Assembly (NCBI GenBank): GCA_938084455.1
Contig: CALKDX010000002.1
Location: 1 to 57,161 of the forward strand
Direction: 5' to 3'
Length of the DNA: 57,161 bases
From: Candidatus Poseidoniaceae archaeon
GTDB lineage: Archaea > Thermoplasmatota > Poseidoniia > Poseidoniales > Poseidoniaceae
Positions 10,401 through 47,863 of this stretch are shown piece after piece (within the stretch, counting starts at the first letter, position 1; each line of letters opens with the position of its first letter). The notes beneath the pieces were generated by a model. It was not told the DNA's origin and did no database searches. It saw only the letters and a program-made list of their open reading frames with translations. The position numbers were made by a program, and so were the translations under genes.

Positions 10401-10518
10401 CGGCACGGGCGCTGCTTTCGTCAACATCAATGGTTTCTTGCAACTCGGCGATGTCAATGCTAGAGAGTAGACTTAGCATCAACATGGCAACGAGAATCAT
10501 AGGGGTTGTTTTCTTCAT
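7435..10518 (-). CDS. Secreted multi-domain surface protein (CARDB/Ig-like and FnIII-like domains), C-terminal transmembrane anchor
   Basis: 1027-aa ORF; N-terminal signal MKKTTPMILVAMLMLSLLSSIDIA; beta-rich repeats; C-terminal WTWGVIGGVVFAAFIVGAFILSRGGEDDENKDWDY. Confidence 0.85.
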   Translation of the reverse strand: MKKTTPMILVAMLMLSLLSSIDIAELQETIDVDESSARAGADAEVIAITSPKETVCTQAGCRNTLNAGEATNFEAYIQNSGDVDITEMSYTVTVYLDDGSGGQSMIAKDAAGNDLQWQNTDVICGSASLCDFTSLAASGVLGGGKYILMYGGNPIVWTPMPGDYIVQITADTPSDVDAGNDAQTIEVSVVNWYDIQVDLSWDSGEAAESGPGVKAWTLSVLANGSDTFNPREVVIRLKAGGDVTGLTSTVDGDILGTAFHDVTVGTATTVETFTNVSTEPPAITNATRNVLAYNTEWTYTGELTFDSNKSDSTYELTAQLLSYTQYSQWDSCIETDPTTNETLNHICEEEFTQDSYPETNEDEILGSASTYHDIRVARMTVAQGYNADGTGNPTSMMSDDAPTDLNVGVSYFHVEVEHRGSDPSTNYAWDATLTVTDEAGESQTVVTNSCETGIEPAYTYKQLGTALYDSDGDGNPDQPGELTGYACMMVTLDSGEHTFSVDLELVHKDALDARPSNNDRTMTVDVRNNNPLILSLDLMNEGDLFTNQEEPLQLSAQVFDVDEPSGMGLEYAWTYSGAALPGCERSTTAQTCTIPVLDTYVLDFPISFTVYDSNGGSTSEEMMLFIWNNGGASATTDSGLSVSYALKYKAPDAFSLNATDADLSNYENKELPGYSGTYSAVGAIDYAPSTTYSASDVLEQSMDVTLPKSLEATSLWYVTDSGLWTLIVAEATDVDATTEMFAYDIPADSPVLSAGALVLMGGSLAQADVPDASITGFSAAAAKGGAIVLNWDVEGTMLDSDSIDVTICEGEAGCADAFTTGLGVGTSTFSYSGSNTVHGAYYNVLVEICNDVGCSTPKGVGNVTADKSVDGGVSAMNFAVSEVGETWVIDWDATGETFDVASWDVCYQRGTFDAANMPTTCASTTTTDVVIDKPTAAGTYTYYFTAVPVDALGNSAASAALNSIDYQRDADTSNVDDGTNVTGDVTAGEVPTWTWGVIGGVVFAAFIVGAFILSRGGEDDENKDWDY

Positions 10519-22500: not shown

Positions 22501-24736
22501 CAATGTAGCGCCAACCATTGCTCCAACTGATGGCATAGCCGTTGTCACATGTACTTGCTGACTTCACTTGAGACCCTCCATAACTTGAGTTGCCACCTGT
22601 GTCGCACAAGTTATCGTTATCGTCATCCAGGTCTTCTCCAGCATCCCTGCAACCATCGCTATCGTGATCGGTGGAAGTGGATGGAGTCCAGCCCATGTCG
22701 CCCCTTGGGCAATCATCGAGGGTGTCAGCAATGCCGTCTTCATCATCGTCCAAATCTTCATTTGAGTAATCTTTGCAGCCATCGCCATCACGGTCTGTAA
22801 CTGAACTTGAAACCCAATTCAATTCGCCGATTTGGCAGTCGTCGACGTTGTCGTTTACGCCATCATTATCGTCATCTGAGTCTTCGACTGTGTCGAGACA
22901 ACCATCGGAATCGTAATCGTTGGAAGAACTGGAGGTCCAAGGTTGGTTGCCTTGGGCACATAGATCATCAACATCATCGACGCCATCGTTGTCATCATCA
23001 GGGTCGCAGACATCGCCAAGAGCGTCGAAGTCGTAGTTGCTTTGATCAGAATTTGAATCGAGTGGGCAATTGTCGCTGCTGTCAGCGTCCCCATCGTTAT
23101 CGTCATCGGAATCCTCAGATGTATCTTCACAGCCATCCCCATCGTTATCTGTAGCGGGTGTCGAGGTCCAGCCAAGCAAACCCTTCTCACACAGGTCAGA
23201 AGTATCGGCAACACCGTCATTGTCATCATCCGTGTCTTCACCTGCATCCCGGCAACCATCGCTGTCATGGTCGGTTGATGACGATGGCGTCCAGCCAACG
23301 TCCCCCGTTGGGCATTGATCGCTTCCGTCAGCGATTCCATCATTGTCGTCGTCTCCGTCTTCACCGCTGTCTTGACAACCATCGCCGTCGTTGTCTGTTG
23401 CCCCAGACGAGACCCAGTTGAGGTCGCCGTCAGGGCAGTCATCTGAACCATCAAGGATACCGTCGTTGTCTCGATCATCGTCCTCGCTGCCATCTTGGCA
23501 ACCATCGCTATCGTAGTCATTGGTAGGCGTTGAAGTCCATCCAAGGTCGCCCGTTGGACAGTTGTCATTGCTATCGACGACACCATCGTTGTCGTCGTCA
23601 GTGTCTTCTCCGCTGTCTTGGCAACCGTCAGAATCGTAATCGGTGCCGAGCGAAGGTGACCACCCCACATCACCGGTTGGGCAGTTGTCGCTACCGTCGG
23701 AGATGCCATCGTTATCGTCATCCGTGTCTTCTGGAGAAGCGTCTTCACATCCATCACCGTCGTTATCAGTTCCTGGTGTTGAAGTCCAACCAAGATTCCC
23801 TGTGGGGCAATCATCGACAGAATCCTCGACATCATCGTTGTCATCATCATTGTCTTCATTGCTGTCTTGGCAACCGTCAGAATCGTAATCGGTGCCGAGC
23901 GAAGGTGACCACCCCATATCGCCTGTTTGGCAATCGTCCGTGGAGTCGAGGACACTGTCGTTATCATCATCCGTGTCTTCAGCAGCATCTTGACAACCAT
24001 CGGTGTCGTAGTCAGTGCCCCCATTTGAGACCCAGCCTGTGTCTCCAGGGGTGCAATCATCGTCGCCGTCATCGACGCCGTCGTTATCGTCGTCGGTGTC
24101 CTCAACAGCATCTTGACATCCATCATTATCATAATCTGTGGCAGCGGAAGAAACCCAATTCAAATCACCAGTCGGGCAATCATCAAAAGGATCCGGACGG
24201 GTGTCGTTATCGTCATCGATGTCTTCTGTAGCGGAATCTAAACATCCATCGGAATCGTAGTCGGTCGTTGAGGAAGGAGTCCAGCCAACCTCACCGGTAG
24301 GACAATCATCTGAACCATCAGGGATAGAATCATTGTCGTCATCTGAGTCTTCGGGAGTGTTGTCCCTGCACCCATCACCATCGTGGTCGGTCGAAGTTGA
24401 AGAAGTCCAACCAAGAACTCCTTTAGCGCATGTGTCATCATTATCCAAGACGCCATCATTGTCATCATCATCGTCCTCATCGGAATCACGGCACCCATCA
24501 GAATCGTGATCGGTAACAGACGTTGAATTCCAACCTGTAACGCCGTTGGGACATGCATCGTCTCCGTCAGAGACATTGTCGCCATCAGAATCGCTTCTAG
24601 CCCCGGTTTCGAGAAGGGCGAATGGGTCTTCTAACTCGAGGGATGCTGGTTGGAGTGCGACGGAAACAGAACTGAAAATAAACAAGGCCAGGGTGGCAAA
24701 AACGGCTAACTTTTTGCGCGTCGCCTCCCCATCCAT
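19544..24736 (-). CDS. Giant Asp-rich thrombospondin type-3-like repeat surface protein with signal peptide and C-terminal TM anchor
   Basis: ORF 19544-24871; preferred start ATG 24736 (MDGEATRKKLAVFATLALFIFSSVSVALQ). About 38 repeats of consensus DDCPxGDLGWTSSxxTDYDSDGCQDxxEDxDDDNDGVxD; C-terminal SLILGLLAMALVPTILGGLLIAYRIRW. Confidence 0.9.
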   Translation of the reverse strand: MDGEATRKKLAVFATLALFIFSSVSVALQPASLELEDPFALLETGARSDSDGDNVSDGDDACPNGVTGWNSTSVTDHDSDGCRDSDEDDDDDNDGVLDNDDTCAKGVLGWTSSTSTDHDGDGCRDNTPEDSDDDNDSIPDGSDDCPTGEVGWTPSSTTDYDSDGCLDSATEDIDDDNDTRPDPFDDCPTGDLNWVSSAATDYDNDGCQDAVEDTDDDNDGVDDGDDDCTPGDTGWVSNGGTDYDTDGCQDAAEDTDDDNDSVLDSTDDCQTGDMGWSPSLGTDYDSDGCQDSNEDNDDDNDDVEDSVDDCPTGNLGWTSTPGTDNDGDGCEDASPEDTDDDNDGISDGSDNCPTGDVGWSPSLGTDYDSDGCQDSGEDTDDDNDGVVDSNDNCPTGDLGWTSTPTNDYDSDGCQDGSEDDDRDNDGILDGSDDCPDGDLNWVSSGATDNDGDGCQDSGEDGDDDNDGIADGSDQCPTGDVGWTPSSSTDHDSDGCRDAGEDTDDDNDGVADTSDLCEKGLLGWTSTPATDNDGDGCEDTSEDSDDDNDGDADSSDNCPLDSNSDQSNYDFDALGDVCDPDDDNDGVDDVDDLCAQGNQPWTSSSSNDYDSDGCLDTVEDSDDDNDGVNDNVDDCQIGELNWVSSSVTDRDGDGCKDYSNEDLDDDEDGIADTLDDCPRGDMGWTPSTSTDHDSDGCRDAGEDLDDDNDNLCDTGGNSSYGGSQVKSASTCDNGYAISWSNGWRYIAPDECPTGSLGWTVSWATDRDGDGCNDSTEDADDDNDGVSDSSDNCPNHSNSGQEDYDSDGAGNPCDSDDDDDGIPDAGLDGNWTLSEDNERCQYGELGWTSTTANDHDRDGCRDSTEDPDDDNDGYLDNVDDCTPGDIGWTSNSTTDYDSDGCQDALEDTDDDNDGVIDLNDNCPKGEMNWTPTPANDYDSDGCQDLTEDPDDDNDGVIDNEDVCVRGDIGWVSSNATDYDSDGCQDSQEDLDDDNDGVADVNDDCRLGELGWVSNPANDYDSDGCRDATEDNDDDNDLILDVDDQCMPGDLGWTSNATTDHDADGCNDASEDNDDDNDGVPDNLDACQTGDVGWISVFVDPDQNLITDWDGDGCRDVGEDLDDDNDRVLDSDDLCPRFTHWNWSSANFGDHDSDGCMDDMWNNGFFSMEEDLDDDNDEVPDVSDDCHYGDLGWISSPSTDHDADGCWDDGEDTDDDNDSIFDGADSCPRGDVGWTPTAETDFDSDGCQDTGEDVDDDNDGVFDSNDLCPFTILDWLSESGTDHDADGCKDDVEDADDDNDGILDEADSCPKGIVGWISEPTPGIDYDQDGCYDTYEDDDWDNDGVLNDYDSCKSGTLNWTSSPTLDYDGDGCLDATEDSDDDNDKVADIFDDCKGAVNWSSTKATDHDGDGCRDDDEDLDDDNDSYPDEEDTCPLGTVGWVPSPTLDKDSDGCLDLLEDPDDDNDGILDLLDQCRAGDVDWLASPITDYDSDGCQDSGEDLDDDNDLVLDITDECPTGDLGWFSNSLTDFDSDGCQDQLEDLDDDNDLVLDSVDFCLDGELNWESNLTTDHDSDGCQDLTEDIDDDNDGVEDLYDNCPVGELDWISDSVLDYDGDGCRDATEDLDDDNDGVTDLDDSCQKGDLDWQSYNVTDSDADGCQDLTEDLDYDTPEEEESGIECNPFVTTCNETASDEIEPQAMDDEGEVQSLILGLLAMALVPTILGGLLIAYRIRW
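19745..24600 (-). repeat. Coding tandem repeat array, ~123-bp period (41 aa), ~38 units
   Basis: Counted by eye from the translated protein: about 36 units of the W-containing type plus two shorter classic TSP3-like units. Confidence 0.85.
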
Positions 24737-24894
24737 GAAGAAAGGTGGGAGAGTGGTCTTTTTATCCTTCCGTCCATCCATGGAATCACCATATTCTCTA
24801 TCTGTTCTTTTGTCTCTGCTTCCACTTAGATGTATTGACAGGGTCGTCAACTCGGACGCAAAGAACTTCATGCCATAAACACCGACGAAGTGTT

Positions 24895-33509: not shown

Positions 33510-33959
33510 TCATACCAGGTTGAGGCTTCGTGCTGCAAGGTTGGTCACAACAAGAATTCCCAAAATCATCGAGGTCACCCTCAACGCGGTGTGCTCATGA
33601 GTGCCAGAATGTGCCTCACGAAGCAAAGCATAGCCAATCAGACCCAAGCCAATCGTTTGGAGCATTGTACCGATGGAAGTGACAACTCGGTCGAGATCGT
33701 TGTATCCATCCACATCTGAGAGGTATTCCGAAATGTCTTCCAACGTTGCTTCATCACCCAGTGCATCAGGAGGGCCCCACATGGTGACGACCTCTGAAAA
33801 TAGAGTTGCAGCGAGAATGAGGATGATTCCAATCATCAACCAACGCTCAAAGGAATAGGAAATTTTGGCCTTGTCGAAGCCTTGTGGGGGTTGATACGGC
33901 GACACAGGTGGAGGGGCAGTTTGGGCGGCAGTTCCGGGTGGAGGAGGTATGGCTTGCAT
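33510..33959 (-). CDS. Pro-rich N-terminus, multi-TM membrane protein, unknown
   Basis: 149-aa ORF 45 bp downstream of arlJ on the same strand. Confidence 0.65.
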   Translation of the reverse strand: MQAIPPPPGTAAQTAPPPVSPYQPPQGFDKAKISYSFERWLMIGIILILAATLFSEVVTMWGPPDALGDEATLEDISEYLSDVDGYNDLDRVVTSIGTMLQTIGLGLIGYALLREAHSGTHEHTALRVTSMILGILVVTNLAARSLNLV

Positions 33960-34004: not shown

Positions 34005-35807
34005 TCAAACTCCAAAGATTCCTGAAGCACTTTCAAGAACAACAGAAGTCAGGAATGAGGTGATTCCAGCAACCCAAAGCAATTGAATGGCTTGCCCAAG
34101 GGCCGTGATTTTTCCACCGCCACGTAACCGATTTGAGATCATTGAAACTGCTGCCACTTGGAACAACACCAAAATCGACACGACAATCTTGAACATTCGA
34201 ATGTTCTCCCCGACTGCAGATGCATCTTCCATAATTGGTAAAGCAAGATCTGAGCCAAAGCTAGAAAGCGCTGAGACATCGGTGTCGACAAATCCTTCGG
34301 CGACACCTGCAATTGAATCTCCCAGTTTCAAGACAATTGCAATGGTCACGTTGAGGCTGGTCACCGTTGCAATCAGTAAACCGAGCGCCACACCGCGCAT
34401 GGTGTTGGCAGACAGTGCACGGCGCCGGCGTAGGGAAAGTAAATTTCCAACCGAACGAGAAACCATCTCTGCAGTTCCTGCAGGTTGGCCAGAGGATTGT
34501 GACCCTTCGATGTAAATTCGGGTGTATCGAGAAATGACTGCAGAGTTTGTGTCTGCGGTAAAATAATCCCAAGCACGATCAGAGTTAATCCGAGTCGAAA
34601 GTCGCTTTTCCAAGCGGTCGATGGAATCATCCAGGACACCAAAGTCAATACCACGAAGGGCTTTGATGGTGGCCGATGGTTCAGCAGAGCGCGCTTGTGC
34701 AGTGCCTCCAAGAGCACGGATAAAATCTGGATAAGTTTCATCTCGACGCAGAACAGCGCTTTCTTCTCGGCCAACCATAAATGCTGGAATGAGCATAGGG
34801 GAAAGCGGGGCAGCAAAAAGAAGTAAACCGTACCGATCCCATTGGCTGCTGACCTCTTGCCAAGAAGCGAGGATGATAATTACGGTGATGAAGAGGAGAA
34901 GAATCGAAAGGAGTGAGGCACCAATGAGGGCCCTGAGAAAATTAATTCGAAACGGAGTGTCCATTTCGTCGCGTGCGAAGGTTGGGTCTTCTGGGATGGT
35001 CGAATTGAACGCATAGACCCCACCAACTTGGATAATGGTGAACAACAAACCCGCTAGCAAAAGAAACCGCATACGACTCGCCACTTCGATTGGAAGATCA
35101 CTTGCAGATCCAACTTCGAACAGCACCAAGTGAATTCCAGCAATCACAAGGCCAAACAATCCAGCAGATACCAGAGACACATAGATTTCCTTCATGGTGT
35201 CTACAGATTCAAGACGCGTGTCGTACAAGGTCGTGTACTGTTCTGCAATTGTTTCCTGTTCGGAACGCATGAACTCATCGATTGGTTGGCCTGCTTCAAT
35301 GGAAAACGCCATTCGATCAAGAAAATCCGCCCACAATGGAGACGGACTTTGTTGGGCCACGATTCGTGAAGCTTCCGGAAGCGACGTGTGCCACTTGTCC
35401 ACAAGCGTTTCAATCCGCTGAACTTCACTGGCTAACTCGCCATAATCCCTCATTTGTTTGAGGATGTCGAAAATAGACTGAGCACCAACTTCACCCAAAG
35501 AAAGGATGCCCATTCGAGTGATGAACATGTGCATTTCTTTCTCAATCAACGCTGCTGAGCGTTGAACATCGAGAAGGGGAAAAGCAATTGCTGCACCCCC
35601 TGCAAGAGTGGGAAGCAACACAAGAAGGAAGATCCCTGCGAAGCCGGAAAACAAGGCCCCTTCCGAAAGACCACCGGTGAGGAGAATGATGACAACTGCG
35701 GAGAAAAAGCCTGCAAAAGCGGCACCACCTACGAAGTAGCCAAGGAAATTCAAAATGGGCATTTCAAGACGCCGCAAAGCGATTTGCCACATCGACATTC
35801 GCTGCAT
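34005..35807 (-). CDS. arlJ: Archaellum assembly membrane protein ArlJ/FlaJ (T2SF)
   Basis: 600 aa, T2SF-type multi-TM architecture, immediately downstream of arlI in an archaellum operon. Confidence 0.9.
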   Translation of the reverse strand: MQRMSMWQIALRRLEMPILNFLGYFVGGAAFAGFFSAVVIILLTGGLSEGALFSGFAGIFLLVLLPTLAGGAAIAFPLLDVQRSAALIEKEMHMFITRMGILSLGEVGAQSIFDILKQMRDYGELASEVQRIETLVDKWHTSLPEASRIVAQQSPSPLWADFLDRMAFSIEAGQPIDEFMRSEQETIAEQYTTLYDTRLESVDTMKEIYVSLVSAGLFGLVIAGIHLVLFEVGSASDLPIEVASRMRFLLLAGLLFTIIQVGGVYAFNSTIPEDPTFARDEMDTPFRINFLRALIGASLLSILLLFITVIIILASWQEVSSQWDRYGLLLFAAPLSPMLIPAFMVGREESAVLRRDETYPDFIRALGGTAQARSAEPSATIKALRGIDFGVLDDSIDRLEKRLSTRINSDRAWDYFTADTNSAVISRYTRIYIEGSQSSGQPAGTAEMVSRSVGNLLSLRRRRALSANTMRGVALGLLIATVTSLNVTIAIVLKLGDSIAGVAEGFVDTDVSALSSFGSDLALPIMEDASAVGENIRMFKIVVSILVLFQVAAVSMISNRLRGGGKITALGQAIQLLWVAGITSFLTSVVLESASGIFGV

Positions 35808-35817
35808 CCATCATCCC

Positions 35818-37533
35818 TCACTCGTGATTGATGCCCTTCCATGAATCGACGGCACGGTCGAAGTGTTCCCAGCCGCTGTTGTAGTAGATTCCAAGCAGAT
35901 CAAACACGTCATCGTAATGGGTTAGGTCTCGATCAACCATTCGCTGGAGCGCTTCTGCCCTCTTGAGCATTTCATCGTAAATATCACGCTTGTTGGCAAA
36001 ACCTGCCATTGCAGCAATTTTGTTTTCAAGCAAATGGCTTTGGAACATTCCGCGGAAGTAGTGTTTATCCTTCACAGGATCCCATTCGAACATACCACGG
36101 GTTAACACACCGTCACTGTGTTTGTTGTATCCAATAACTTCGTCAATACCTGTAACACGCCGGGCGATTCCTCCCCCTGGTGCTTCGACGACCTCTTGGA
36201 AAATAGCGAAATTCAGGTTATCGAAGAAACGAATTGGAACATTGATTGGGTCGCCGGTAAACCGTTGAATCATCTTCACAATTGACGATGCGTGGAACGT
36301 CGCAATGACCGGGTGGCCCGTTTGCATTGCCTGGAATGCTGTCGCTCCTTCGACACCACGTATTTCACCGATGATGATGTAACGTGGCCGGCTACGCAAT
36401 GCTGCCTTGAGTAAATCGAACATTTCCACACGAGACTCTTCGTTCTTTGAGGAACGGGTCACCAATCGTTGCCAAATCTTGTGGCGCACCTTGACTTCAG
36501 GAGTGTCTTCTGCCGAGTAAATCTTGACATTGTGGTCAATAAAAGGGAGAATGGCATTGAGGGTTGTGGTTTTTCCAGATGCAGTTTCCCCGGACACAAG
36601 AACCGACATACCGTATTCAAGGCAAATCCAGATGTAGGCTGCGACCTGCGAAGAAATGGTCCCCCAAGCAATGAGTTGTGTGATGGAGATGGTTTCTTCA
36701 GCAAACTTACGAATGGTGAATGATGGTCCTAACATGGACACGTCATCGGAGAAAATGATGTTGATACGAGAGCCATCGAGCAATGCGCCATCAATGATTG
36801 GTTTGTTGTCCGAAACAGGACGCCCGATACGCTCAGACATTGCTCTGAGGAAACGGGAAAGAATTTCTCGGTCCCTAAAGCGAATGTTGGATGTCACCAT
36901 GCCGAACACCTTGTGATCCATGTGGACGTGTTTCAGGCCAATTGAGTGAATATCTTCCAGCATCTCATCAGAAAGAAGGGGTTCAAGCGGTCCGTTTCGA
37001 ATGAGGTCACGAATCACGATGTACTCCAAGCGTGTGCGCTGCTCTTGATTGACAACGAGCCGCCTGTCTTCTAGCCCCAGCATTTCCCAAAGACGCCCTT
37101 GGCGCCGAGGTGCGACACCGATTTCTGTATCGAGAACAGTGTAACGAGCAACCATCTGACGGAGGATGTTTTCAAACTCATTATCTGTTGTGAAGGATGG
37201 AGCAGCTGGTGCTTCTTGGAGGAGAGTTTCAGTTAATTCTCTACGAATGTTTTCTTCCTCTTCAGTGAGTTGAGGCTCAAGGCCAAACCACAAAATTTGG
37301 CCACCACCCTCTTCATCAGCAGGAGGTTCGTAAATGTGAATGAAAATTGGTTCTTTTGCAAGGTAAATGAGGTTGAGGGGGCGTTCCTTTTTGGCATCCC
37401 TGTCAAGTTCACCGTAGTAGATCGGGCGAGTCCCGTAGCGAGCCTCGAAATCACGAACCCAGTCTGCGACGTGTTGGTGGGCAGCCATGACCCCATTGAG
37501 GTCACCCTTTGCGAATGTAGGTTCATCTGACAT
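35818..37533 (-). CDS. arlI: Archaellum assembly ATPase ArlI/FlaI
   Basis: Walker A SGETASGKTTTLNA, RYIIIGEIRGVEGATAFQAMQTGHPVIATFHA; SD GGAGGT upstream. Confidence 0.97.
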   Translation of the reverse strand: MSDEPTFAKGDLNGVMAAHQHVADWVRDFEARYGTRPIYYGELDRDAKKERPLNLIYLAKEPIFIHIYEPPADEEGGGQILWFGLEPQLTEEEENIRRELTETLLQEAPAAPSFTTDNEFENILRQMVARYTVLDTEIGVAPRRQGRLWEMLGLEDRRLVVNQEQRTRLEYIVIRDLIRNGPLEPLLSDEMLEDIHSIGLKHVHMDHKVFGMVTSNIRFRDREILSRFLRAMSERIGRPVSDNKPIIDGALLDGSRINIIFSDDVSMLGPSFTIRKFAEETISITQLIAWGTISSQVAAYIWICLEYGMSVLVSGETASGKTTTLNAILPFIDHNVKIYSAEDTPEVKVRHKIWQRLVTRSSKNEESRVEMFDLLKAALRSRPRYIIIGEIRGVEGATAFQAMQTGHPVIATFHASSIVKMIQRFTGDPINVPIRFFDNLNFAIFQEVVEAPGGGIARRVTGIDEVIGYNKHSDGVLTRGMFEWDPVKDKHYFRGMFQSHLLENKIAAMAGFANKRDIYDEMLKRAEALQRMVDRDLTHYDDVFDLLGIYYNSGWEHFDRAVDSWKGINHE

Positions 37534-37547
37534 TCATGGTACCTCCT

Positions 37548-38276
37548 TCAACTGACCGCCGTGATGTCGACGATGAAGCCCATGCTCGGCTCAACACGCC
37601 ATCCAACAGAAGTTTGAACTGGGCCTGCAGCCCTCAAAAACCTCGTAACAACGATGTTTCTTTTGATTTCACCACCGATCATAGCGGTGGTGAGATCAAG
37701 AACAATTTCTGCTGATGCACGCAAAGTGTGCATCATTTTGTGGTCCATTTCGTCAGGGTCGACGCACAACATGAGCGAGCGACCATCGGCACAAATGCGA
37801 CGAAGCCGCTGCATCATGGTAAAACGTTGAGTTTCGTCGAGCGAATCAGGCATTAGTGAACTCGCTGCATCGATAATCACGACGTCTGCGAGTGCGATTG
37901 CCTCTGCTTCAAGCAGTTCGTTTAGCCCGACATCCGGTAGGGCTTCTGCAATAGTTCCAAAACGGGAGAAGACCATCAGTTGGCCTTCCCGAATGGCATC
38001 TGTGATACCGTAACCAATGGATTCCATTTGCTCAATCCAGCCGCGAGTCGTGAGTTCAGTTGTGATCACGAGTACTTTCACACCGTTTTCTACCATACCA
38101 TAGGCAAGTCGTTGTGAGATGAGTGATTTACCGCCACCCACTCCACCTTGGAGGACATACAAGGAACGGTTTGGTAACCGCAATCCCATGGAATCACCCA
38201 GGGAGTCTGTTTCCAAATCGAAAGGAAAACCGTCTTCTATCGGCTTGTGAGCCGTCAAAAATGGATCTTCCTTCAA
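37548..38276 (-). CDS. arlH: Archaellum regulatory ATPase ArlH/FlaH (RecA/KaiC-like)
   Basis: GGVGGGKSLISQRLAYGM Walker A, position between arlG and arlI. Confidence 0.93.
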   Translation of the reverse strand: MKEDPFLTAHKPIEDGFPFDLETDSLGDSMGLRLPNRSLYVLQGGVGGGKSLISQRLAYGMVENGVKVLVITTELTTRGWIEQMESIGYGITDAIREGQLMVFSRFGTIAEALPDVGLNELLEAEAIALADVVIIDAASSLMPDSLDETQRFTMMQRLRRICADGRSLMLCVDPDEMDHKMMHTLRASAEIVLDLTTAMIGGEIKRNIVVTRFLRAAGPVQTSVGWRVEPSMGFIVDITAVS

Positions 38277-38764
38277 GAGAGCCTCACCTCGACATTCATT
38301 GATGCACTTGATGACATGCCACCAACGACTTCAGATGTGACGATGGCGTACAATTTGACATCGTCCCCTGCCGCAAATGGAGTGGTTCCGTAAGAGGAAT
38401 CTTCAATCACAATTTCAGCAAGTTCGTTTGAGTCCCACGTGGGCCCGGTGATTGTGGCAGTGGTATTGGTTGGAGCTTGCCCGTTCACGAGCACGGCGAT
38501 GAGTTGTTCATCCAGTGGATGGATTCCGGTGTTTTGCAGGTAGAAGGTGATGGACGGTGTCGAACCGCTGGTGTCAACATCCACCATCATTGGGTCGCCG
38601 GCAAAATCCAAGCCGAGTTCACCCGTGAAGGTGATGCCCTGCTGATTTTTTTGAGCCGTTCTCGCCATTGCCGACCATTCCGTGATCAGCAGTGCACTCA
38701 CAGAACTCGAGATCAACAAGCCCGTGATGAGCATGATGAAGGTTGATGCGCCACCGTCTGCCAT
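38273..38764 (-). CDS. arlG: Archaellum protein ArlG/FlaG
   Basis: Pilin-like N-terminal helix (GGASTFIMLITGLLISSSVSALLITEW) and beta-sandwich domain; 4-bp overlap with arlH. Confidence 0.8.
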   Translation of the reverse strand: MADGGASTFIMLITGLLISSSVSALLITEWSAMARTAQKNQQGITFTGELGLDFAGDPMMVDVDTSGSTPSITFYLQNTGIHPLDEQLIAVLVNGQAPTNTTATITGPTWDSNELAEIVIEDSSYGTTPFAAGDDVKLYAIVTSEVVGGMSSSASMNVEVRLS

Positions 38765-38773
38765 AGCCAGTCC

Positions 38774-39415
38774 TCAGAGCGTAGTACCTACTGTTGTACC
38801 GCCATAGGTGAAGGCAAGGCGGACATGGTTTGTAGGTGATAATTCCCAACGCAGATCAAGCGTTTCCCCAGAATACCAATACCCGCTGGACAAGCCAATT
38901 GGGTTTGATGCTGAGAGCGTTTGCGGATCTGTCCCATCGAGGAACAGCCAAACATCCTCGGTAGGGAGGGTGACTGCACCATCGTTGGTGATCACGGCAA
39001 AAACGTAAGTCTTCATGACGGGGGTAAGTGTTGCAGCAGCTGTAGGTGTCTGAGCGGGTGTTCCAAAAGAGATGACAGGAGTGGATGTCGAACAATCGCC
39101 GGTGCTGGTGATGGACACGGCGTCGATGACTCCATTGCTGTCAACTGTGAAACTTGCGCTAAATCCTGTACACGAGGACGCAACAAGGGTCCCGTTGACG
39201 TAATCTGTTCCTCCGTTCGTGATGGTGATGTCTTCAAGGGCGAAAAGCCAGATATCACTCGAATCAACGGTGAAACTCGGTAGAGGCTCAGCAGCGGATT
39301 CAATCGAATCCATTGAGGATTCAAACTGATTTCCAATCGTTTGAACGGCCATGGAAAACACGACCAATAACGATACCCCAATGATGAGGCCACCAATACC
39401 CACCGAGCCAGCCAT
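38774..39415 (-). CDS. arlF: Archaellum protein ArlF/FlaF with insertion
   Basis: MAGSVGIGGLIIGVSLLVVFSMAVQTIGNQ N-terminal helix; C-terminal YVFAVITNDGAVTLPTEDVWLFLDG; start taken as MAGSV (track start 39427 overlaps upstream gene). Confidence 0.75.
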   Translation of the reverse strand: MAGSVGIGGLIIGVSLLVVFSMAVQTIGNQFESSMDSIESAAEPLPSFTVDSSDIWLFALEDITITNGGTDYVNGTLVASSCTGFSASFTVDSNGVIDAVSITSTGDCSTSTPVISFGTPAQTPTAAATLTPVMKTYVFAVITNDGAVTLPTEDVWLFLDGTDPQTLSASNPIGLSSGYWYSGETLDLRWELSPTNHVRLAFTYGGTTVGTTL

Positions 39416-39416
39416 T

Positions 39417-40250
39417 TCAGGCTCCACCTCGGAGAGAACTCACACTTCGCCAGGAACTGACGAGTGATGAGAACGTTAGCAAATCTTTGTGGGGCAGATG
39501 GTCATCAAGCGCAGCCTCGGCTTCACCGGGTGCTGCAAGTTGAACAATTGCCAGAACAGATCGACCTTCTTCGTCGTTCAGCATACCTGAAGACATGGCC
39601 TTCTGAGTGAAACTAACTGCCGCCATGCCAGACATGTTGTCGAGCAAGAGGGCAGAAACTGTCGGTGCGCCCACGCTGTTTCCAGCAGTGGTTGCGCCAT
39701 GCGATGGAGCGTGCAAGAATGGATTTGCAGCGAGAGCTTGCGCTTCGTACAATTCCACCAAGGGTGCTTCATCAACTTCCTTCAGTCGGTCGTTGCCTGT
39801 AACGGAGATCACTTCTCCGCTTGCGGTGACAATCATGTCTCCATCAAGCGCAGTTGGGTCGTCACCGTCTTCGGATGCCTCACCTTCTGCTGCGAGTGCT
39901 GCAGAGGGCGTCTCAAGACGAACTTCGACATTCCGAAGCACATCCTCGACCATGTCGAGGCGGCTGCTGATCATGCGTTCAAGTCCCGAGGTGTCAACTG
40001 TGGCGTTCACAGGAGAGGCAGGTGCTGGTGCGAGGCTTGCTGCAACGCTGGGCACACTGCCGATGCTGTTGAGGCGTGCTTTGGTAGGACCTGGAGAGAT
40101 GGTCCACGCATCTTCCTCGCCAAGTTCACCCTCTTCGGGAAGAGGGACTTGCTCAATAGCGATGTTCGCCATTATTTTGAGCCGATCTTCAGTGAGAGCC
40201 GCGTCTTCATCAATGTCCTCATTTGCACTGTTGCCAAATGGCCATGCCAT
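39417..40250 (-). CDS. Unknown soluble protein encoded between archaellins and ArlF (positional analogue of ArlC/D/E)
   Basis: 277-aa ORF, acidic/Ala-rich; no FlaD/E signature recognised. Confidence 0.75.
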   Translation of the reverse strand: MAWPFGNSANEDIDEDAALTEDRLKIMANIAIEQVPLPEEGELGEEDAWTISPGPTKARLNSIGSVPSVAASLAPAPASPVNATVDTSGLERMISSRLDMVEDVLRNVEVRLETPSAALAAEGEASEDGDDPTALDGDMIVTASGEVISVTGNDRLKEVDEAPLVELYEAQALAANPFLHAPSHGATTAGNSVGAPTVSALLLDNMSGMAAVSFTQKAMSSGMLNDEEGRSVLAIVQLAAPGEAEAALDDHLPHKDLLTFSSLVSSWRSVSSLRGGA

Positions 40251-40300
40251 GATAATTCCTCCTCTAAGGGCGCTTTTTCAAGCAGAGCCCTTAGAAAGCA

Positions 40301-40867
40301 TCAAACAACCTTGGACCCAGCAGCTGTGGCACCCAAACTAAGGGTCTCAAAGGTGGTTCCTCCGGAGCCGACGTGGATGTAAGCTTGGACTGTGTTGCCG
40401 CTGCCTACGGTGGCAGCGGTACAATCCAGGCCTCCAGCAGCCGTACCGGAAAGGATCATTGTGTAACCGGTCGAGGGTTGCATGGTAGCAGCTGCTCCGC
40501 CAGTTCCGTCCATCAGTTCAACGGTTCCAACTGCGCCTTCAACTGGCAATGTACCTGGGCACATCAATTGGTAGGTGATTGAGTTGGTTGGGGCTGGCTC
40601 ACTGCCTGGTGCGAGACGCACATACAGTTTGTAGCCAGTGGTTCCGTCGACGTATGCGGCATTAATCATGACTTTACCAGCCATGTTGTCTGCGGTGTCG
40701 TCGCCAGTTTGTTGAGCGTTCTGTTGAAGCGCTTCAGCAGTCTGGATGATCACTGCTGCTGCAACTGCAGCAACAAGGATCAAAGCAATGAAGACGATCA
40801 TAGCGCCGATACCAATGGCAGCGACCTTGTCATCTTGGAATTCTTGATTGCGAGTGTTTGCCTTCAT
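40301..40867 (-). CDS. arlB: Archaellin (FlaB/ArlB family), copy 2
   Basis: DDKVAAIGIGAMIVFIALILVAAVAAAVIIQTAEALQQNAQQTG: archaellin N-terminal hydrophobic helix. Confidence 0.93.
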   Translation of the reverse strand: MKANTRNQEFQDDKVAAIGIGAMIVFIALILVAAVAAAVIIQTAEALQQNAQQTGDDTADNMAGKVMINAAYVDGTTGYKLYVRLAPGSEPAPTNSITYQLMCPGTLPVEGAVGTVELMDGTGGAAATMQPSTGYTMILSGTAAGGLDCTAATVGSGNTVQAYIHVGSGGTTFETLSLGATAAGSKVV

Positions 40868-41427
40868 ACAACCACCACTCCTCTGTCGACACTACCGCCG
40901 TAGCTGAGTAGTTCGTAAGTGAATCCACCGGATCCGGATTGAATCATGAATTCATTTGCGGTGTTTGCTGTTGGTGGGCAGTTGGTAGCACCAGCCAAGT
41001 TGAGCGTGATGCTGTAGGTCGAACCTGTGTTGAGGGTCACTGCGTTTCCGTTTGCGCCGACTTGGCTAGCGGTTGTGAAATCGCCAGCGTTTGAGTTTGC
41101 TCCACACTCAATTGCCCACATGACGTTTGCGGCAGTGATTGAATCAGAGCCGGGTGCGAGTTCAAATGTGACAAAGATCGATGTTGCAGGGTCTGCTGCA
41201 CCGGTTGTCACAATGCTCTTGATGAAGACCTTGGAGGCCAACAAATCTGTTGTTTCTTCACCGGTTGTCTGTGCGTTTTGTTGCAATTGCTCTGCAGTCT
41301 GAATAATGACTGCTGCTGCAACCGCCGCAACAAGAATCAGGGCAATGAAGACAATCATTGCACCAATACCAATTGCAGCGAGGTTATCGCTGTTTTCGTT
41401 CGTATTTTCTTTCATATTTTTCACCAT
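40864..41427 (-). CDS. arlB: Archaellin (FlaB/ArlB family), copy 1
   Basis: SDNLAAIGIGAMIVFIALILVAAVAAAVIIQTAEQLQQNAQTTGEE; 4-bp overlap with copy 2. Alternative start at internal Met (MKENTNEN). Confidence 0.93.
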   Translation of the reverse strand: MVKNMKENTNENSDNLAAIGIGAMIVFIALILVAAVAAAVIIQTAEQLQQNAQTTGEETTDLLASKVFIKSIVTTGAADPATSIFVTFELAPGSDSITAANVMWAIECGANSNAGDFTTASQVGANGNAVTLNTGSTYSITLNLAGATNCPPTANTANEFMIQSGSGGFTYELLSYGGSVDRGVVVV

Positions 41428-41474
41428 TTTTTGTTTTTTTTTGTATCCCCCACGTAGGGTGGAATTGGAGTGGT

Positions 41475-42536
41475 TCAGGCGTTGCCTCCCGAACCGATTT
41501 TGATGCGCAGAGGCATGCGAATAAGAGCGACTTCATCTGGTGCGAGACGATTGATGAAGGGAACCTTAGGTGTTGTAAACCCGGGCGGTATCCACGGCGA
41601 TAGCACGATGTCTTGCAGTGGCTCCATGGACCGGTTTTGCGCACGAATGGTGGCTGTGATTTCACCTGTACGCATTTCGTATGAGGTTGCAATGGCGAGT
41701 TTTCTCGACAAAGGAATTTCATCCGCTCCATACCTTCGGTTTGCTTTGACTTCAAACCGAAGCGGTAGGTTGCCACCAGGTGCAATGATTGGAAGGTCAA
41801 CCGATGAAGGAACGCAAGTCCAGCCCTCCGGCACAGGAGGGGCGAGTCGCATGTTTGGCATGGCAACTGGGCCATCGTTGATGATTCGCACGATCAACAC
41901 GCCTTCATCGCCACCAGCAGGCCATCGAGTGTCAAGGCCGAGCCAGAAGTGTCGGAATAAGAAGGGATTGAGGGTGGATGTGTTGCCACCAATCAGGTCA
42001 TCGACAAGGTGCTCGACTTCGCCTGCAGCGATGGCTACATCGCCAATTTCTGCTGCACCGGTTGCAGAACGCAAACGCAGCAGAATCGTTTCCACTTCCG
42101 ACTCGTTAATTTTTTTCTCGCTCAAGAGTCGGTGGAGCATAGCGATGTTTCTGCGCAAATGAAGAACATCTTCCTCAAGCAGTGCAAGCGATTGTTCGGC
42201 TTTCTTGACCGACTTGCGGGCCTTTCGAAGGTTGTGGGTGTTGAGGAATTGCTTTGCGTCAGCGATGTCAACTTCGGTACCCGCTAACGAATTGCCCTCA
42301 TCTTGTATGACGCCAAAGACAAGCGATTCGAGTTCTCTTGATGCAGAAATTAAACGGTCTGCAGAATCTTTGCTTGCTGCAATAGCAGCCCGTGCTTCCT
42401 CTACTTCACCCTCAGACATCTCTGTGGTTGTCGCCATCGATTCGCCCAATTCCGCATCAGGAACATCGAACCCTGCATCGACTTCGTCGAGCAGCATATC
42501 TGGGTCGTCAATGACGTCAACATCTTGCTTAGACAT
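41475..42536 (-). CDS. Coiled-coil/helical N-terminus + Ig-like (NEW3/CARDB-like) C-terminus, no signal peptide; archaellum-operon associated
   Basis: 353 aa; ASKDSADRLISASRELESLVF...ARKSVKKAEQSLALLEEDVLHLRRNIAML helices then GVLIVRIINDGPVAMPNMRLAPPVPEGWTCVP beta domain; 8-bp overlap with upstream gene. Confidence 0.8.
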   Translation of the reverse strand: MSKQDVDVIDDPDMLLDEVDAGFDVPDAELGESMATTTEMSEGEVEEARAAIAASKDSADRLISASRELESLVFGVIQDEGNSLAGTEVDIADAKQFLNTHNLRKARKSVKKAEQSLALLEEDVLHLRRNIAMLHRLLSEKKINESEVETILLRLRSATGAAEIGDVAIAAGEVEHLVDDLIGGNTSTLNPFLFRHFWLGLDTRWPAGGDEGVLIVRIINDGPVAMPNMRLAPPVPEGWTCVPSSVDLPIIAPGGNLPLRFEVKANRRYGADEIPLSRKLAIATSYEMRTGEITATIRAQNRSMEPLQDIVLSPWIPPGFTTPKVPFINRLAPDEVALIRMPLRIKIGSGGNA

Positions 42537-45500
42537 CGTCGTTCACCTCCTCTGTTGAAGCCTCACCTGAAACGATGGAACCAACGGTTGCAGTACCGGA
42601 GAGTTCTCCAAAGATTTCGTCCAAATCCAAGCCATCATTTGCCAGTTCGTTGAACAGGCGTGCCGGGTCGCCAAGGTCGCGTTCAATGCGAGTGGCCTTG
42701 ACTTCGATGTCCGTCAAACGACCGTAGAGATTACCATACGCACGGTCAGCGCGGAGAATGATCATCCAAACGCCGAGCATGACAATCGTGACATAAACGA
42801 CCACTGAAACGAGGTTGTTTTGGTCGTTGTAGATTTGTGGAGGTAGCCCGAGGACAACCGCCAAGAATCCCAACACCGGCACAGCAAGAATGACGCTGAG
42901 TTGTCTTCTGCTGTCGCGTAGAGCGTCGAAGTGATCCGCATAGAGCGTGGAAACGCCACGACGGGCTCTTTGGTAATCTTCGTGAATGAGTTTGAACTCT
43001 TCAGCACTGGCCCAACTCATTCGCCAAATCCAAAGGGCTGCGAGGAAAAGCACGGAAAGCCCCCAGAATGGTAAATCGAGGACATGGAACGCGAAGCCGA
43101 ACCCAAGCACACCGGAGTAGACCGATAGAAGGCGGAATTTCTCATTTTGACCTGTTAAGCGCAAAAGAATGAACGATGTGAGGAAACAAATGATGAGTGC
43201 AATGAAGCTCGTAGATACCCCTGGGGATGACGATTCAACATCAAGTTCAATGGTTCGAACGTCATTGCCTACAACGTTCTTTGCCATGTACACCGCATCG
43301 ACGGTTGCTGTGCAGGTTGTAGATTGGGATTGAATCCACCAGTCGATGGCATTGGGTTGAATGACCCATGTGAGTTCTACCGATTGGCCCGGTCCAAGCA
43401 GACCAATCATTGGTCCGTCACTCGGGTTTGTTGGAATATTGATAATCACTGCGTCAGGGCATTCAAGCGCCACATCGATGCCGATTGCTGATGCCGTACC
43501 GGCGTTGAGCACGGTTAGCGTTAGGTCGTATTCTTCACCCTCAGCAAGACTCACCTCACCCATTGCTTCGACCAGTGGATCTGCAAAGACATCCAAGGCA
43601 AAACTGAACGTTTCCGGGTCGAAATTCGAGTAATTGGCGTTCTCGGTCGGATGGTACAAACGGAATTCCAAGTCCCATCCATCGCCAGAGAGGATGTTTG
43701 GACGAACGGGGGTTTGGACTCGAATCTTAATCGGATTGGTTGTGTCCCACGCACTGCGTTCTGGCAGAGAAATTCTGGCCGCCTCGCCTTGGGTACCAGA
43801 GGCACACGAAGAGGATTCAAGCGGCAAGGTGATTTCCGTGTTGTTGGCATCTGGAAGGATGACTGTGAATGACCATGGGTAGTCCGCCTCATTCAGGTTC
43901 AACGAACTGAAGTCCAGCATGCGGGTAGCGCCGCACAATTCAAGCTCATAGGCAGCGCTCAATGCTTGGCCGTTTGGAATGTGAGAATACGTGAGGTCGA
44001 TGTCCAATGGAGGGTCACCGACCTCCGGTCGAAGTACAATTTCCCCGGTGCTGAAGAACCGAGACATCATGAGTTGAGTTGCGAACGAGGCGTTTCCTTC
44101 GACCAATGCATCGCTTGGCTGATAGTAGATCTTGAAGTCAGCAGTTGTCGACAAATCGGGTTCGAAATTCAGAGCCTCGACGCTGAAGATATGAGTCACA
44201 GGGACGCCAATTGGCAATGTAAGTGTGGTTGGGGCGTCTGAGACCATTGCCCAATCGGTCGATTGGATGGTCAGCCCGGGTGCATTGATGACGTAACCGA
44301 CTTGAACCTCAACATCTCGATTTCCAGTGTTGAGCAGCGAAACTTCCCATGTTCGTGTGCCTTGGCGATAAAATTCCATTTCTGTAGGCCAGTCTTCTAC
44401 TTCCAAGGTGAACAACGCACCAACTCTGAGTTGAATCACCACGCTTGTTTTGAAGGCTGAAGAATCAGCATCATACACTGAGATTGTCAAATTGTGCACT
44501 GAACCATCGAGCAGCGTTGTCTCGCCACCGAGGCTTGGAACGCTCACAACAACCTGCCCTGCGATGGTTTGATTGATCGATAATGTCATGCCGATTTCAC
44601 TGACATCGGTTGACCATTCGCCTTCAACAGTAGGCTTGACAATCACCGACTCCTGAAGGTTGCCAATGTTGGTCACATTGAACTCAACCATGGTCATTTC
44701 ACCGGGTGTGACGGCAACGACCTGAGGACCTTCGACTTGAATATCAGAACTCTTGGTGATGTTGGCAGTAATGTTTGCAGACATGTTGACGACGCCGCTT
44801 GAATCTTCGACCCAAACAGTGGTGACGTAGTTTTGGTCAGCACTGGCTGTGGAGGATGGTGTGGCCCTCACCTTGATGATGTCCTCGTAATTTGGGGCGA
44901 TTAACATCGATGGATTCGAATCAAGTTCGAACATTACGTCGCCTGCTTCACTGTTGTCAAGCCAGACATAGAATGTCGTTGGAGCGTTTCCAGTGTTTGT
45001 GATCTTGATGGTCTTGAATTCGCCCACATCAGTGGGTGCTAACGATAGAGTTTGGGTCAGCGGGAAAAGAGTCCCATTGCGGATTTCACCAACCCGAATT
45101 GGCAGAATGTGTTCGGTAATGATTTCGCCTGTGTCTCGGTGTTCAACCGTGAGGGTGAGTGGGATAATCGAATTTGCTGGAACAAAGGGGTCGGTTGTAA
45201 TCAGCAACTCAACAATGGTTTTGTGAGCGCCTCCGACATCTGGATGATCAGCAACATCCGCGGAGAGGTTATCGATTGTGTCAGTGGTTCCATTGAATTC
45301 AACGGTCCAATCGCTTGGTACATCTGCCACTCGCAATCTGTAAGAAGTAAGGTCGTTTCCGGTGTTTGCCAGTTGGAAGGCCACGGGCGTTTGGACACCG
45401 ACCATCACATCGACCGGTCCGTCTTCGAGAATATCCGCTCCATAGACGGTTGGAATGATGATTGACAAGTTCCTTGTGACAGGAGTGGCGCCAACGCCGC

Positions 45501-47448
45501 TACCAGTGTGCACGCCACCAAGGGAGGGCGTCACAGTAACTGAGAGGGTGAGCGTACCTGCTAACGGATAGTCATCATCAGGGCCTTGAATGGCGAGGAT
45601 TGCCGGTTGGGTATCGCCCGGGCGCAGTCCGGTCAAACTTGGTGGAGAAACTGAGGCAGACCAACGTTCTGCTTCGGTGAACCCGCCAGTGTTTGCTGCT
45701 AGGAATGAAATGCTCGATACCACAACTTCAGCGGAGAGTGTTTCATCGATGTTGGAATACAAATTGTGTCGGACCTCGACATCAAGCGACAAGATGTCTT
45801 CGAGGCCTTGGCCGTTTCTTGCCGCAATTACATCTTCTGCAGTTAGGGTCAATTCCTCAACAGGCAAACCTGGGTCAACCACAATCGTTGGAAGGACTTC
45901 GATGTTGGAGGAGTTTTGAACCGGGAGGCCGCCACCATTTGCTTGAACCTGCAACCAAACTTGGAGCGGTTGGCCTGCCAGATTGAATTCGCCAGGGTTC
46001 AATGGGCTCTTGATGGGTGGAACCTTAATGTCAATTGGAACTTGAATCGTTTGAGAACGATTGATGTACATCGAAACCTCTTCGCATGGCTCACCTTGGA
46101 GATCCAACACCCAATTCACCGCAGCCACGGAAAGCCCGCAATCGAAGGTGAATTCGCCGCCTACATTCCCCTCATTGGTGATGTTGGCCATCACCGAGGC
46201 TGAAACGCCTGGTTTGAGCATTGTCGTGGTGCTGGGCATTTCTATTGATGCAAGGTAGGACTCGCCGGCTTGGACGACAGCGGTTGTCACCAGAGTGTAT
46301 CCGTCTTGAAGCGACAAAAGAGTGAGTGTGATGGTAGTGGCATTGGTCCTGTTTTCATCCACTGGAACCGTTACGGCAATGGCGATCGAGGTCGTGGCGC
46401 CTGGAGCAATCGTAGAGGTGGATGTGGTGACAAGTGAGGTGTCGGCCCAACTCCGACTGATGGGCGAAGCGCTGATCGATTGTATGCGATAGGAATCCAT
46501 CAAGGCACCTGTGTTCTTCAGAAGGAATGTGAGGGTTCCCGTTTGACCTGGTTCGATGGAACGGTCGCCCAGCGAAGACAAGGAGGCCGTATAATTGGAG
46601 AATCGTGCCGTGAATGAATCAACAGTTTCGTTGTAATTCCACATTGTACCGTTGTAGGTCACCGTGAATGTCATGTCCCAGAGACCACTAAAAGTCGAAG
46701 AATCGAACGAGTAGGTCAGGTTCTCAACGCCCGAGGCAGAAAACAGGGACCCCGCTTCAAGCGTCTGAGTGTTCGACCAGAAAGTGAAGGAAGTGGAGGG
46801 GTCGTTCGAATCGGTCACGGTCAGATTCATCACTGCTGAGATTGTTTTCACCCCAGCATTTCGAACCGAGACATTGAATGTCTTCATGGAGCGAGTGATG
46901 CCAATTTCTGTTTCACCGGGTGAAATGTCTGGGAGGTTGTCATCGGTTGTGATCCCGCTGTGGTTGTTCTTGACATCGAAATCTTTGCGTTGTTCGTTGT
47001 TGCCGGGGTTGCTATCACCTGCGCCCGAGACACGGGCAAAGAGCGTTTGAGCGTCCCCGGTGGTTGCTGTCCAAGGAATAACGATTGGATTGGAGGTTGT
47101 GAGCGCAGGAATGGACCCAAGGGCGATGGTCGTTACGATGTATTCGCCAGAAGTGGGCGAGCCTTTGTGAACGAGTTGCAGGGAAGCGCTTCCGCTCAAG
47201 TCGCCTGTGTTTCGAACGACAACCCGCACATCATGTTCTGCTGGTTCAAGATAAATTCCAACCCCGCGGTCAATCGATCCTGCCCCGCTAAAGGTCAGGA
47301 GCGTGACACCGAAGTCAGGTGCCGCCCTGCCCGAAGTTTGAGCGCCACTGCTTCCAATCAGGGGAGTGGCCATTGGGACCAAGAAGAGAATCACTAACGC
47401 TAAAGCAAGCTTTGTCGTTGAGGAACGGTGTTCACGCAGAGGCTTCAC
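42529..47448 (-). CDS. Giant multi-Ig/CARDB-domain surface protein with C-terminal TM bundle, archaellum-operon associated
   Basis: ORF 42529-47694; signal peptide (VKPLREHRSSTTKLALALVILFLVPMATPLIGSSGAQ) is internal to the track ORF, and a GTG at 47448 fits as start. About 5 TM helices near the C-terminus and a cytosolic acidic tail. Confidence 0.85.
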   Translation of the reverse strand: MKPLREHRSSTTKLALALVILFLVPMATPLIGSSGAQTSGRAAPDFGVTLLTFSGAGSIDRGVGIYLEPAEHDVRVVVRNTGDLSGSASLQLVHKGSPTSGEYIVTTIALGSIPALTTSNPIVIPWTATTGDAQTLFARVSGAGDSNPGNNEQRKDFDVKNNHSGITTDDNLPDISPGETEIGITRSMKTFNVSVRNAGVKTISAVMNLTVTDSNDPSTSFTFWSNTQTLEAGSLFSASGVENLTYSFDSSTFSGLWDMTFTVTYNGTMWNYNETVDSFTARFSNYTASLSSLGDRSIEPGQTGTLTFLLKNTGALMDSYRIQSISASPISRSWADTSLVTTSTSTIAPGATTSIAIAVTVPVDENRTNATTITLTLLSLQDGYTLVTTAVVQAGESYLASIEMPSTTTMLKPGVSASVMANITNEGNVGGEFTFDCGLSVAAVNWVLDLQGEPCEEVSMYINRSQTIQVPIDIKVPPIKSPLNPGEFNLAGQPLQVWLQVQANGGGLPVQNSSNIEVLPTIVVDPGLPVEELTLTAEDVIAARNGQGLEDILSLDVEVRHNLYSNIDETLSAEVVVSSISFLAANTGGFTEAERWSASVSPPSLTGLRPGDTQPAILAIQGPDDDYPLAGTLTLSVTVTPSLGGVHTGSGVGATPVTRNLSIIIPTVYGADILEDGPVDVMVGVQTPVAFQLANTGNDLTSYRLRVADVPSDWTVEFNGTTDTIDNLSADVADHPDVGGAHKTIVELLITTDPFVPANSIIPLTLTVEHRDTGEIITEHILPIRVGEIRNGTLFPLTQTLSLAPTDVGEFKTIKITNTGNAPTTFYVWLDNSEAGDVMFELDSNPSMLIAPNYEDIIKVRATPSSTASADQNYVTTVWVEDSSGVVNMSANITANITKSSDIQVEGPQVVAVTPGEMTMVEFNVTNIGNLQESVIVKPTVEGEWSTDVSEIGMTLSINQTIAGQVVVSVPSLGGETTLLDGSVHNLTISVYDADSSAFKTSVVIQLRVGALFTLEVEDWPTEMEFYRQGTRTWEVSLLNTGNRDVEVQVGYVINAPGLTIQSTDWAMVSDAPTTLTLPIGVPVTHIFSVEALNFEPDLSTTADFKIYYQPSDALVEGNASFATQLMMSRFFSTGEIVLRPEVGDPPLDIDLTYSHIPNGQALSAAYELELCGATRMLDFSSLNLNEADYPWSFTVILPDANNTEITLPLESSSCASGTQGEAARISLPERSAWDTTNPIKIRVQTPVRPNILSGDGWDLEFRLYHPTENANYSNFDPETFSFALDVFADPLVEAMGEVSLAEGEEYDLTLTVLNAGTASAIGIDVALECPDAVIINIPTNPSDGPMIGLLGPGQSVELTWVIQPNAIDWWIQSQSTTCTATVDAVYMAKNVVGNDVRTIELDVESSSPGVSTSFIALIICFLTSFILLRLTGQNEKFRLLSVYSGVLGFGFAFHVLDLPFWGLSVLFLAALWIWRMSWASAEEFKLIHEDYQRARRGVSTLYADHFDALRDSRRQLSVILAVPVLGFLAVVLGLPPQIYNDQNNLVSVVVYVTIVMLGVWMIILRADRAYGNLYGRLTDIEVKATRIERDLGDPARLFNELANDGLDLDEIFGELSGTATVGSIVSGEASTEEVNDDV

Positions 47449-47863
47449 CTCCCGGTTTTTCAAAGCGGTCAATGGTGACTCGCTTGCCTTGTGACTTCCA
47501 CTGCAGCAGCAATTGGTGGAGAAGGCGATCATGCTCTTGCTCTGAAATCCCCAAACGACGTCGCTCCTCCCAAAGAAGCAGTTGTTCAGTGCGCGTGAGC
47601 AAGGCGTCGCGAAGGTAGAGTTCGAGGGTCCGCCGATAGGCGTCCCGATCTGATATCGCATAGACAATGGTGTCTCCGGGCAACTGATCGGCACGGTGCT
47701 GAATCAAGTTACCCAGCGTTAGGGCCTCATCGTAAGACACGTTTCTTTTGTCCAAATCAGTTTGAATCGAGCTGGCTATGGCCTGTAGATCAAACTTGGT
47801 CGTCACACGCTGTATGCGCTTGAAGTACCGACGAGAACGTCGAGACATACGCGATGCGACCAT
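47432..47863 (-). CDS. Small basic/helical protein of unknown function, first gene of the archaellum-associated operon
   Basis: 143 aa, Arg-rich N-terminus (SRMSRRSRRYFKRIQR), helical C-terminus; overlaps the giant gene start by 17 bp. Confidence 0.65.
   Translation of the reverse strand: MVASRMSRRSRRYFKRIQRVTTKFDLQAIASSIQTDLDKRNVSYDEALTLGNLIQHRADQLPGDTIVYAISDRDAYRRTLELYLRDALLTRTEQLLLWEERRRLGISEQEHDRLLHQLLLQWKSQGKRVTIDRFEKPGGEASA

Follow-up and report, generated by a model that had tools for sequence, protein, structure and literature searches.

Archaella of the euryarchaeal arl1 type are encoded in Thermoplasmatota (loci L105-L108) as a run of archaellins, an ArlC-type protein, ArlF, ArlG, ArlH, ArlI and ArlJ, and the same run is found in the Poseidoniales locus analyzed here. 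The Poseidoniales operon differs from this arrangement in that its putative ArlC is strongly diverged and no Pfam match to ArlD/E accompanies it, and in that a small basic protein (p143), a giant protein and a 353-aa protein (p353) are encoded before the archaellins. Tully (2019; PMC6336850, Fig. 4) reported this locus as a putative motility operon of Marine Group II, with FlaAGHIJ and extra flagellins and with several conserved, unannotated orthologous neighbors across subclades, and found neither annotation nor homology for most of the canonical operon. In the Poseidoniales taxonomy of Rinke et al. (PMC6461757), adhesion, not motility, was proposed for the operon. ArlF and ArlG are thought to be stators that need an S-layer anchor, and the solution adopted by S-layer-less Thermoplasmatales is considered open (PMC12448462). 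One of these, Oxyplasma meridianum, is likewise thought to need a stator anchor other than an S-layer; it has ordinary arlC and arlD genes, and an unordered protein layer has been proposed as its anchor (PMC12448462). The original prediction for this locus was of an undescribed system. Tully's study already contained the operon with its conserved unannotated genes, and it is the module formed by the giant protein and p353 for which that description stands. Beyond that earlier work, we assign the 277-aa protein of the operon (p277) to ArlC, characterize the giant and p353 and trace them to other families, and locate the prepilin peptidase. A literature search, with most subscription journals outside its scope, returned no publication in which p277 is identified as ArlC or the giant/p353 pair is described.

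The window, a 57,161-nucleotide stretch of DNA, corresponds to contig C2 of a genome of 1.93 Mb (85% complete) from a Marine Group II (Poseidoniales) host. Open reading frames and family searches confirmed the predicted layout in full, with 11 genes on the minus strand between 47863 and 34005, in the order listed in Table 1, joined by overlaps or short gaps. The overlaps measure 17 bp (p143/giant), 8 bp (giant/p353) and 4 bp (between the two archaellins and between ArlG and ArlH), and the widest gaps, of about 47-50 bp, separate p353 from the archaellins and the archaellins from p277. Archaellins matching PF01917 thus share one locus with arlH, arlI and arlJ, with the qualification that ArlH and ArlJ do not reach the NCBIfam cut-offs (178 vs 215 bits and 380 vs 550 bits, respectively). 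The stator pair is also present, ArlG clearly and ArlF weakly, both placed as expected in most loci. Judged by its gene content, the locus is the archaellum operon, encoding a rotary swimming filament, of a Marine Group II archaeon.

Table 1. Features of the archaellum operon in the window, in order of transcription.
Feature	Coordinates	Strand	Evidence
p143, small basic protein, 143 aa, first gene of the operon	47432..47863	-	ORF
Giant protein, 1,639 aa from a GTG start codon at 47448	42529..47448	-	NEW3/Ig Pfam matches, hydropathy, C-terminal conservation, sequons
p353, soluble, helical hairpins followed by two Ig domains	41475..42536	-	AF2, Foldseek, f11 homologue
Archaellin 1, 187 aa	40864..41427	-	PF01917 E 7.2e-18
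Archaellin 2, 188 aa	40301..40867	-	PF01917 E 4.4e-19
Stem-loop CTAAGGGC...GCCCTTAG, interval between archaellin 2 and the ArlC-type gene	40264..40294	-	sequence
p277, putative divergent ArlC-type protein	39417..40250	-	signature, coil, position matching f11 ArlCE
ArlC signature LVELYEAQALAANPF, p277 residues 164-178	39717..39761	-	invariant in 32 aligned sequences
ArlF, 217 aa	38774..39427	-	NF052590 E 8e-5 (weak) and position
ArlG, 163 aa	38273..38764	-	NF052591 E 6.3e-13; PF01917 E 1.5e-8
ArlH, 242 aa	37548..38276	-	NF052589 E 1.9e-52, 178 bits
ArlI, 571 aa	35818..37533	-	PF00437 E 5.9e-37
ArlJ, 600 aa	34005..35807	-	NF004704 E 2.8e-113, 380 bits

The leading gene of the operon encodes a protein with 39 invariant columns in an alignment of 18 sequences and no credible Pfam match; a kinship of p143 with p277 or with ArlC/D/E gave no signal. 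Directly 3' of ArlJ and on the same strand lies a gene for a 149-aa membrane protein (33510-33959), which is kept in some Poseidoniaceae only. The window also carries large minus-strand open reading frames of 1,775 (19544-24871), 1,534 (10757-15361) and 1,027 aa (7435-10518), and profile comparison found no relation between these three and the giant protein.

The association of the giant and p353 with arlHIJ, which the original prediction proposed to check by a synteny survey, was borne out. Among 51 loci retrieved from both Poseidoniales families (Poseidoniaceae and Thalassarchaeaceae), every unbroken locus presents the order giant, p353, archaellin(s), p277, ArlF, ArlG, ArlH, ArlI and ArlJ, although divergence sometimes caused phmmer to miss ArlF. 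Because the same order recurs in every unbroken locus across the two families, it is not attributable to chance. The p143 gene leads nearly all Poseidoniaceae loci that extend that far, as well as those of two Thalassarchaeaceae genera. The p353 of the window shares 90% identity with its counterpart on the complete MG-II chromosome CM001443, and its identity to the p353 of other Candidatus Poseidoniales/Poseidoniaceae records lies at 84-98%.

Co-occurrence across 194 Poseidoniales genomes points the same way. p353 was found in 119 of them, the C-terminal region of the giant in 122 and an archaellum-type ArlH in 120, with presence or absence of ArlH agreeing with that of p353 in 183 genomes and with that of the giant in 184; the three occur together in 114-119 genomes (Fisher p < 1e-38), and the giant is present in every genome that has p353. 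The exceptions inspected were the genomes with ArlH and without p353, six in number, and each of these loci lies near a contig end: the contig ends shortly upstream of ArlH in four (L077, L181, L182 and L183), and in G027 and G139 the distance from ArlH to the contig start is 1.2 and 3.2 kb, respectively. These comparisons suggest that the giant and p353 are, with high probability, dedicated to the archaellum. Surface proteins with a similar multi-Ig make-up occur widely in the phylum, so that the two might be general envelope proteins sharing the arl promoter by chance or co-regulation, but their loss and retention track the arl genes over the 194 genomes and their linkage to arl genes is also kept in another family (f11, described below), and we regard such an origin as very improbable.

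Four genes downstream of the giant, p277 had been listed as a protein of no recognizable kind that could replace missing motor parts. The window's p277 by itself has no Pfam match, and at this level the original statement that no ArlC is recognizable holds; it does not extend to the p277 family, in which the motif L-x-x-L-Y-E-x6-N-P-F is invariant over 32 aligned sequences. ArlC of other Thermoplasmatota has this motif too, with identical spacing (for example, LVSLYEIVSEQMNPF and LLDIYEVVSQKINPF). Among 3,419 open reading frames of Poseidoniales loci, LxxLYE-x6-NPF was found in 41 p277 reading frames and in no other, and the 17 best matches to an HMM built from ArlC of other Thermoplasmatota were p277 proteins without exception (best E 3.6e-4). 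Of all Pfam families, PF05377 (FlaC) collected the largest number of p277 matches, 9 of 32 sequences at E<1 with a best E of 0.0057. The gathering score of PF05377 was not reached by p277, and in the sampled genomes no member of the order matched at E<=0.01.

In p277, the signature L..[LIV]YE-x6-NPF is combined with a coiled coil, placed by AF2 at residues 88-113 and followed by a C-terminal helical bundle (mean confidence 66, which is low). The linker from coil to motif is longer than in other ArlC, and the C-terminal helical domain occupies the place of ArlE in ArlCE fusions, a correspondence seen in position. When whole profiles of p277 and ArlC/D/E were compared by hhalign, the alignment covered the signature alone and was not significant, and a fold search of the PDB gave no match below E 0.78. 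The idea that p277 is a wholly new protein was rejected on the signature and the operon position, and p277 is very probably a divergent ArlC-type protein. Its proposed role as a substitute for a missing ArlC/D/E falls with this assignment, the signature and the HMM matches placing p277 itself in the ArlC type.

A strong stem-loop at 40264-40294 sits just upstream of the ribosome-binding site of the putative arlC gene. Most loci have a stem-loop of different sequence at the same place, with a z-score of -2 or lower against mononucleotide shuffles in about three quarters of them; no consensus fold was found for these archaellin/arlC stem-loops, because the stems vary in sequence and do not align. 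By analogy with Pyrococcus, where intergenic terminators have been proposed to tune such a ratio (PMC10665913), the stem-loop could set the ratio of archaellin to motor.

The giant protein begins with a hydrophobic signal or TM segment, as seen in its hydropathy, and continues as an ectodomain of about 1,370 aa of Ig repeats with Ig/NEW3 Pfam matches and 25 N-glycosylation sequons. It ends in a cluster of four TM helices with a conserved loop (EF..IHEDYQRAR.G.ST.Y.DHF) and a conserved tail, both of which the hydropathy pattern would place in the cytosol. A degenerate ArlJ was considered for the C-terminal membrane part and rejected (hhalign E 0.46). Its partner p353 has neither a TM segment nor a signal by hydropathy, and AF2 (mean pLDDT 75) models it as helical hairpins (residues 42-182) followed by two appendage-like Ig domains (196-345). 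A Foldseek search of the PDB with p353 returned one match below E 0.001, with a low TM-score and over the Ig part only, and the Ig domains resemble Ig folds of appendages and of the axoneme central apparatus. In several Thalassarchaeaceae genera (L085-L087, L092-L098), a TPR-like helical insertion precedes the Ig domains of p353. The module that appears to be undescribed thus consists of an Ig-repeat ectodomain on a multi-helix anchor and, as its partner, a soluble coiled-coil/Ig protein.

Weak matches to p353 elsewhere in the phylum pointed to arl operons of family f11. Three of these (L189, L196 and L198) present a p353 homologue followed by an archaellin, a Pfam-positive ArlCE, ArlF/G, ArlH, ArlI and ArlJ, and parts of the same order are visible in three more loci (L190, L197 and L200). 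Where the contig extends far enough (L196, L197, L198 and L200), the gene immediately before p353 encodes a giant of at least 1,346 and up to 1,517 aa that has several TM helices in its C-terminal part, and ArlCE is the positional counterpart of p277. The Poseidoniales and f11 p353 profiles align with an hhalign E of 5.6e-9 over 224 columns, against 0.26 for the control. The giants cannot be equated in the same manner: their alignment across families (E 1.8e-43) was discarded as proof of orthology given that an ordinary multi-Ig control reached E 1e-16 to 1e-19, and the giants of Poseidoniales and f11 resemble each other only a little more closely than the giant resembles ordinary multi-Ig surface proteins. 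Because ordinary multi-Ig proteins match nearly as well, the equivalence of the giants rests on their position, their partner and their multi-TM anchor.

A similar giant/p353 pair was also found in family f26, near a contig end, with the ArlCE of that family at the end of another contig. No giant or p353 lies directly in front of the Thermoplasmatota loci with separate arlC, arlD and arlE genes (L105 and L106). In family f18, locus L194 (G210:C64) contains a giant/p353-like pair followed by coiled-coil genes; the 10 kb examined include no arl gene, and the p353-like protein has zinc-ribbon-like CxxC motifs. This pair may be a relative of the module that occurs away from arl loci.

Since the f11 giant and p353 share an operon with a Pfam-positive ArlCE, they accompany ArlC or ArlCE and do not replace it, and the original suggestion that they stand in for ArlC/D/E has to be abandoned in favor of additions to the machine. 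The same operons bear on whether p353 and the cytosolic parts of the giant form the real cytoplasmic ring, as a counterpart of ArlX or ArlD with p277 a mere adaptor; a part in such a ring was given to p353 in the original prediction. ArlX, the crenarchaeal cytosolic ring (PMC8978795), makes p353 a candidate analogue around ArlH/ArlI, and such a role would suit a soluble, helical-hairpin-rich protein that always adjoins the archaellins, in an order where PF04659 (ArlD/E) is absent from all sampled genomes (vs 67 of 243 genomes in the phylum). ArlX, however, has a single TM helix with a cytosolic coil, whereas p353 has no TM segment and carries Ig domains; a kinship of p353 with p277 or ArlC/D/E gave no signal, and the f11 homologue coexists with a full ArlCE, so that no substitution takes place there. 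We therefore consider the ring improbable. An explanation combining the usual core, a diverged ArlC-type p277 and a dedicated giant/p353 module accounts best for the locus, and we hold it, taken as a whole, to be moderately probable.

The prepilin peptidase ArlK had also been noted as missing. None is encoded in the window, as stated, but the genome has a gene for an A24 peptidase at another place, so that the enzyme is not missing. The initial result for PF01478 (0 of 40) was overturned by weak matches in a wider search, which led to a diverged A24 prepilin peptidase (class III) at G000:C26:4811-5806 (L178), of about 332-340 aa. This reading frame is 66% identical to a relative carrying both A24 catalytic-site motifs. 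The family, a membrane protein of about 333 aa, has the motifs AAWMDHKERRV.N and HGGADAKALMW, which we take to be the two catalytic-aspartate regions of A24 peptidases, and in Poseidoniales it scores below the Pfam cut-off and is easily overlooked. Absence from the window is normal, arlK often being encoded away from the arl locus (PMC8978795).

Poseidoniaceae archaellins (L004-L101, including both copies in the window) mostly have the N-terminus D-x-[ILV]-A-A-I-GIGAMIVF, in which the cleavage site of charged residue and Gly before GIG is mostly missing and Ala plus a hydrophobic residue replace [KRDE][GA]; in archaellins of the sister family, acidic or Ser residues precede Gly/Ala. The specificity of the diverged A24 peptidase may have changed. 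Two more secretion-ATPase loci are present in the genome, at G000:C31 (L113) and G000:C112 (L114), and a type IV pilin near the latter begins with KNDEAVSPVIATVLL.

In the mechanism that we propose, ArlI, ArlJ and ArlH would build and rotate the filament in the manner of other archaella, with p277 as a cytosolic collar around ArlH/ArlI that would receive no CheW-type chemotaxis input. The giant would be a rod of Ig domains whose C-terminal helix cluster holds it in the membrane, and it would give the ArlF/G stator a hold in cells that may be without an S-layer, while p353 would bind the cytosolic side of this anchor and tie it to the collar. A giant Ig rod that is inherited together with the motor and has a partner in the cytosol fits a private stator anchor.

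The giant could instead be an adhesin that accompanies the filament; the operon would then serve particle attachment, with a complex of the giant and p353 sensing contact or sticking. CheW was found in none of 60 Poseidoniales genomes, in agreement with published reports of no chemotaxis genes, flagellar adhesion has been argued and flaJ reported as enriched in particle fractions (PMC6461757), and a long Ig ectodomain rich in sequons would suit such a function. Yet the rotation and stator parts ArlF, ArlG and ArlH are all kept, crenarchaeal archaella swim though they have neither chemotaxis nor ArlC/D/E (PMC8978795), and a multi-helix anchor strictly paired with a cytosolic partner would be unusual for an adhesin. 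We rate the stator anchor, a plausible role for the giant that nonetheless falls short of probable, above the adhesin, which we think rather unlikely. The wider proposal, that in Poseidoniales and at least one further Thermoplasmatota family the stator is anchored in a dedicated, co-encoded giant Ig scaffold, not in an S-layer, with a helix cluster holding this scaffold in the membrane and a coiled-coil/Ig partner locking it on the inner side, is put forward tentatively.

Poseidoniales, of which no member is in culture, rank among the most abundant archaea of surface seawater, and whether their archaella serve to swim or to stick is disputed. The putative ArlC-type p277 and the A24 peptidase remove two grounds for calling the machine incomplete, and the conserved module of giant and partner bears on what the ArlF/G stator grips where there is no S-layer. 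If true, a giant-anchored stator would constitute a new structural class of archaellar motor, for which the f11 operons may provide a more tractable host.
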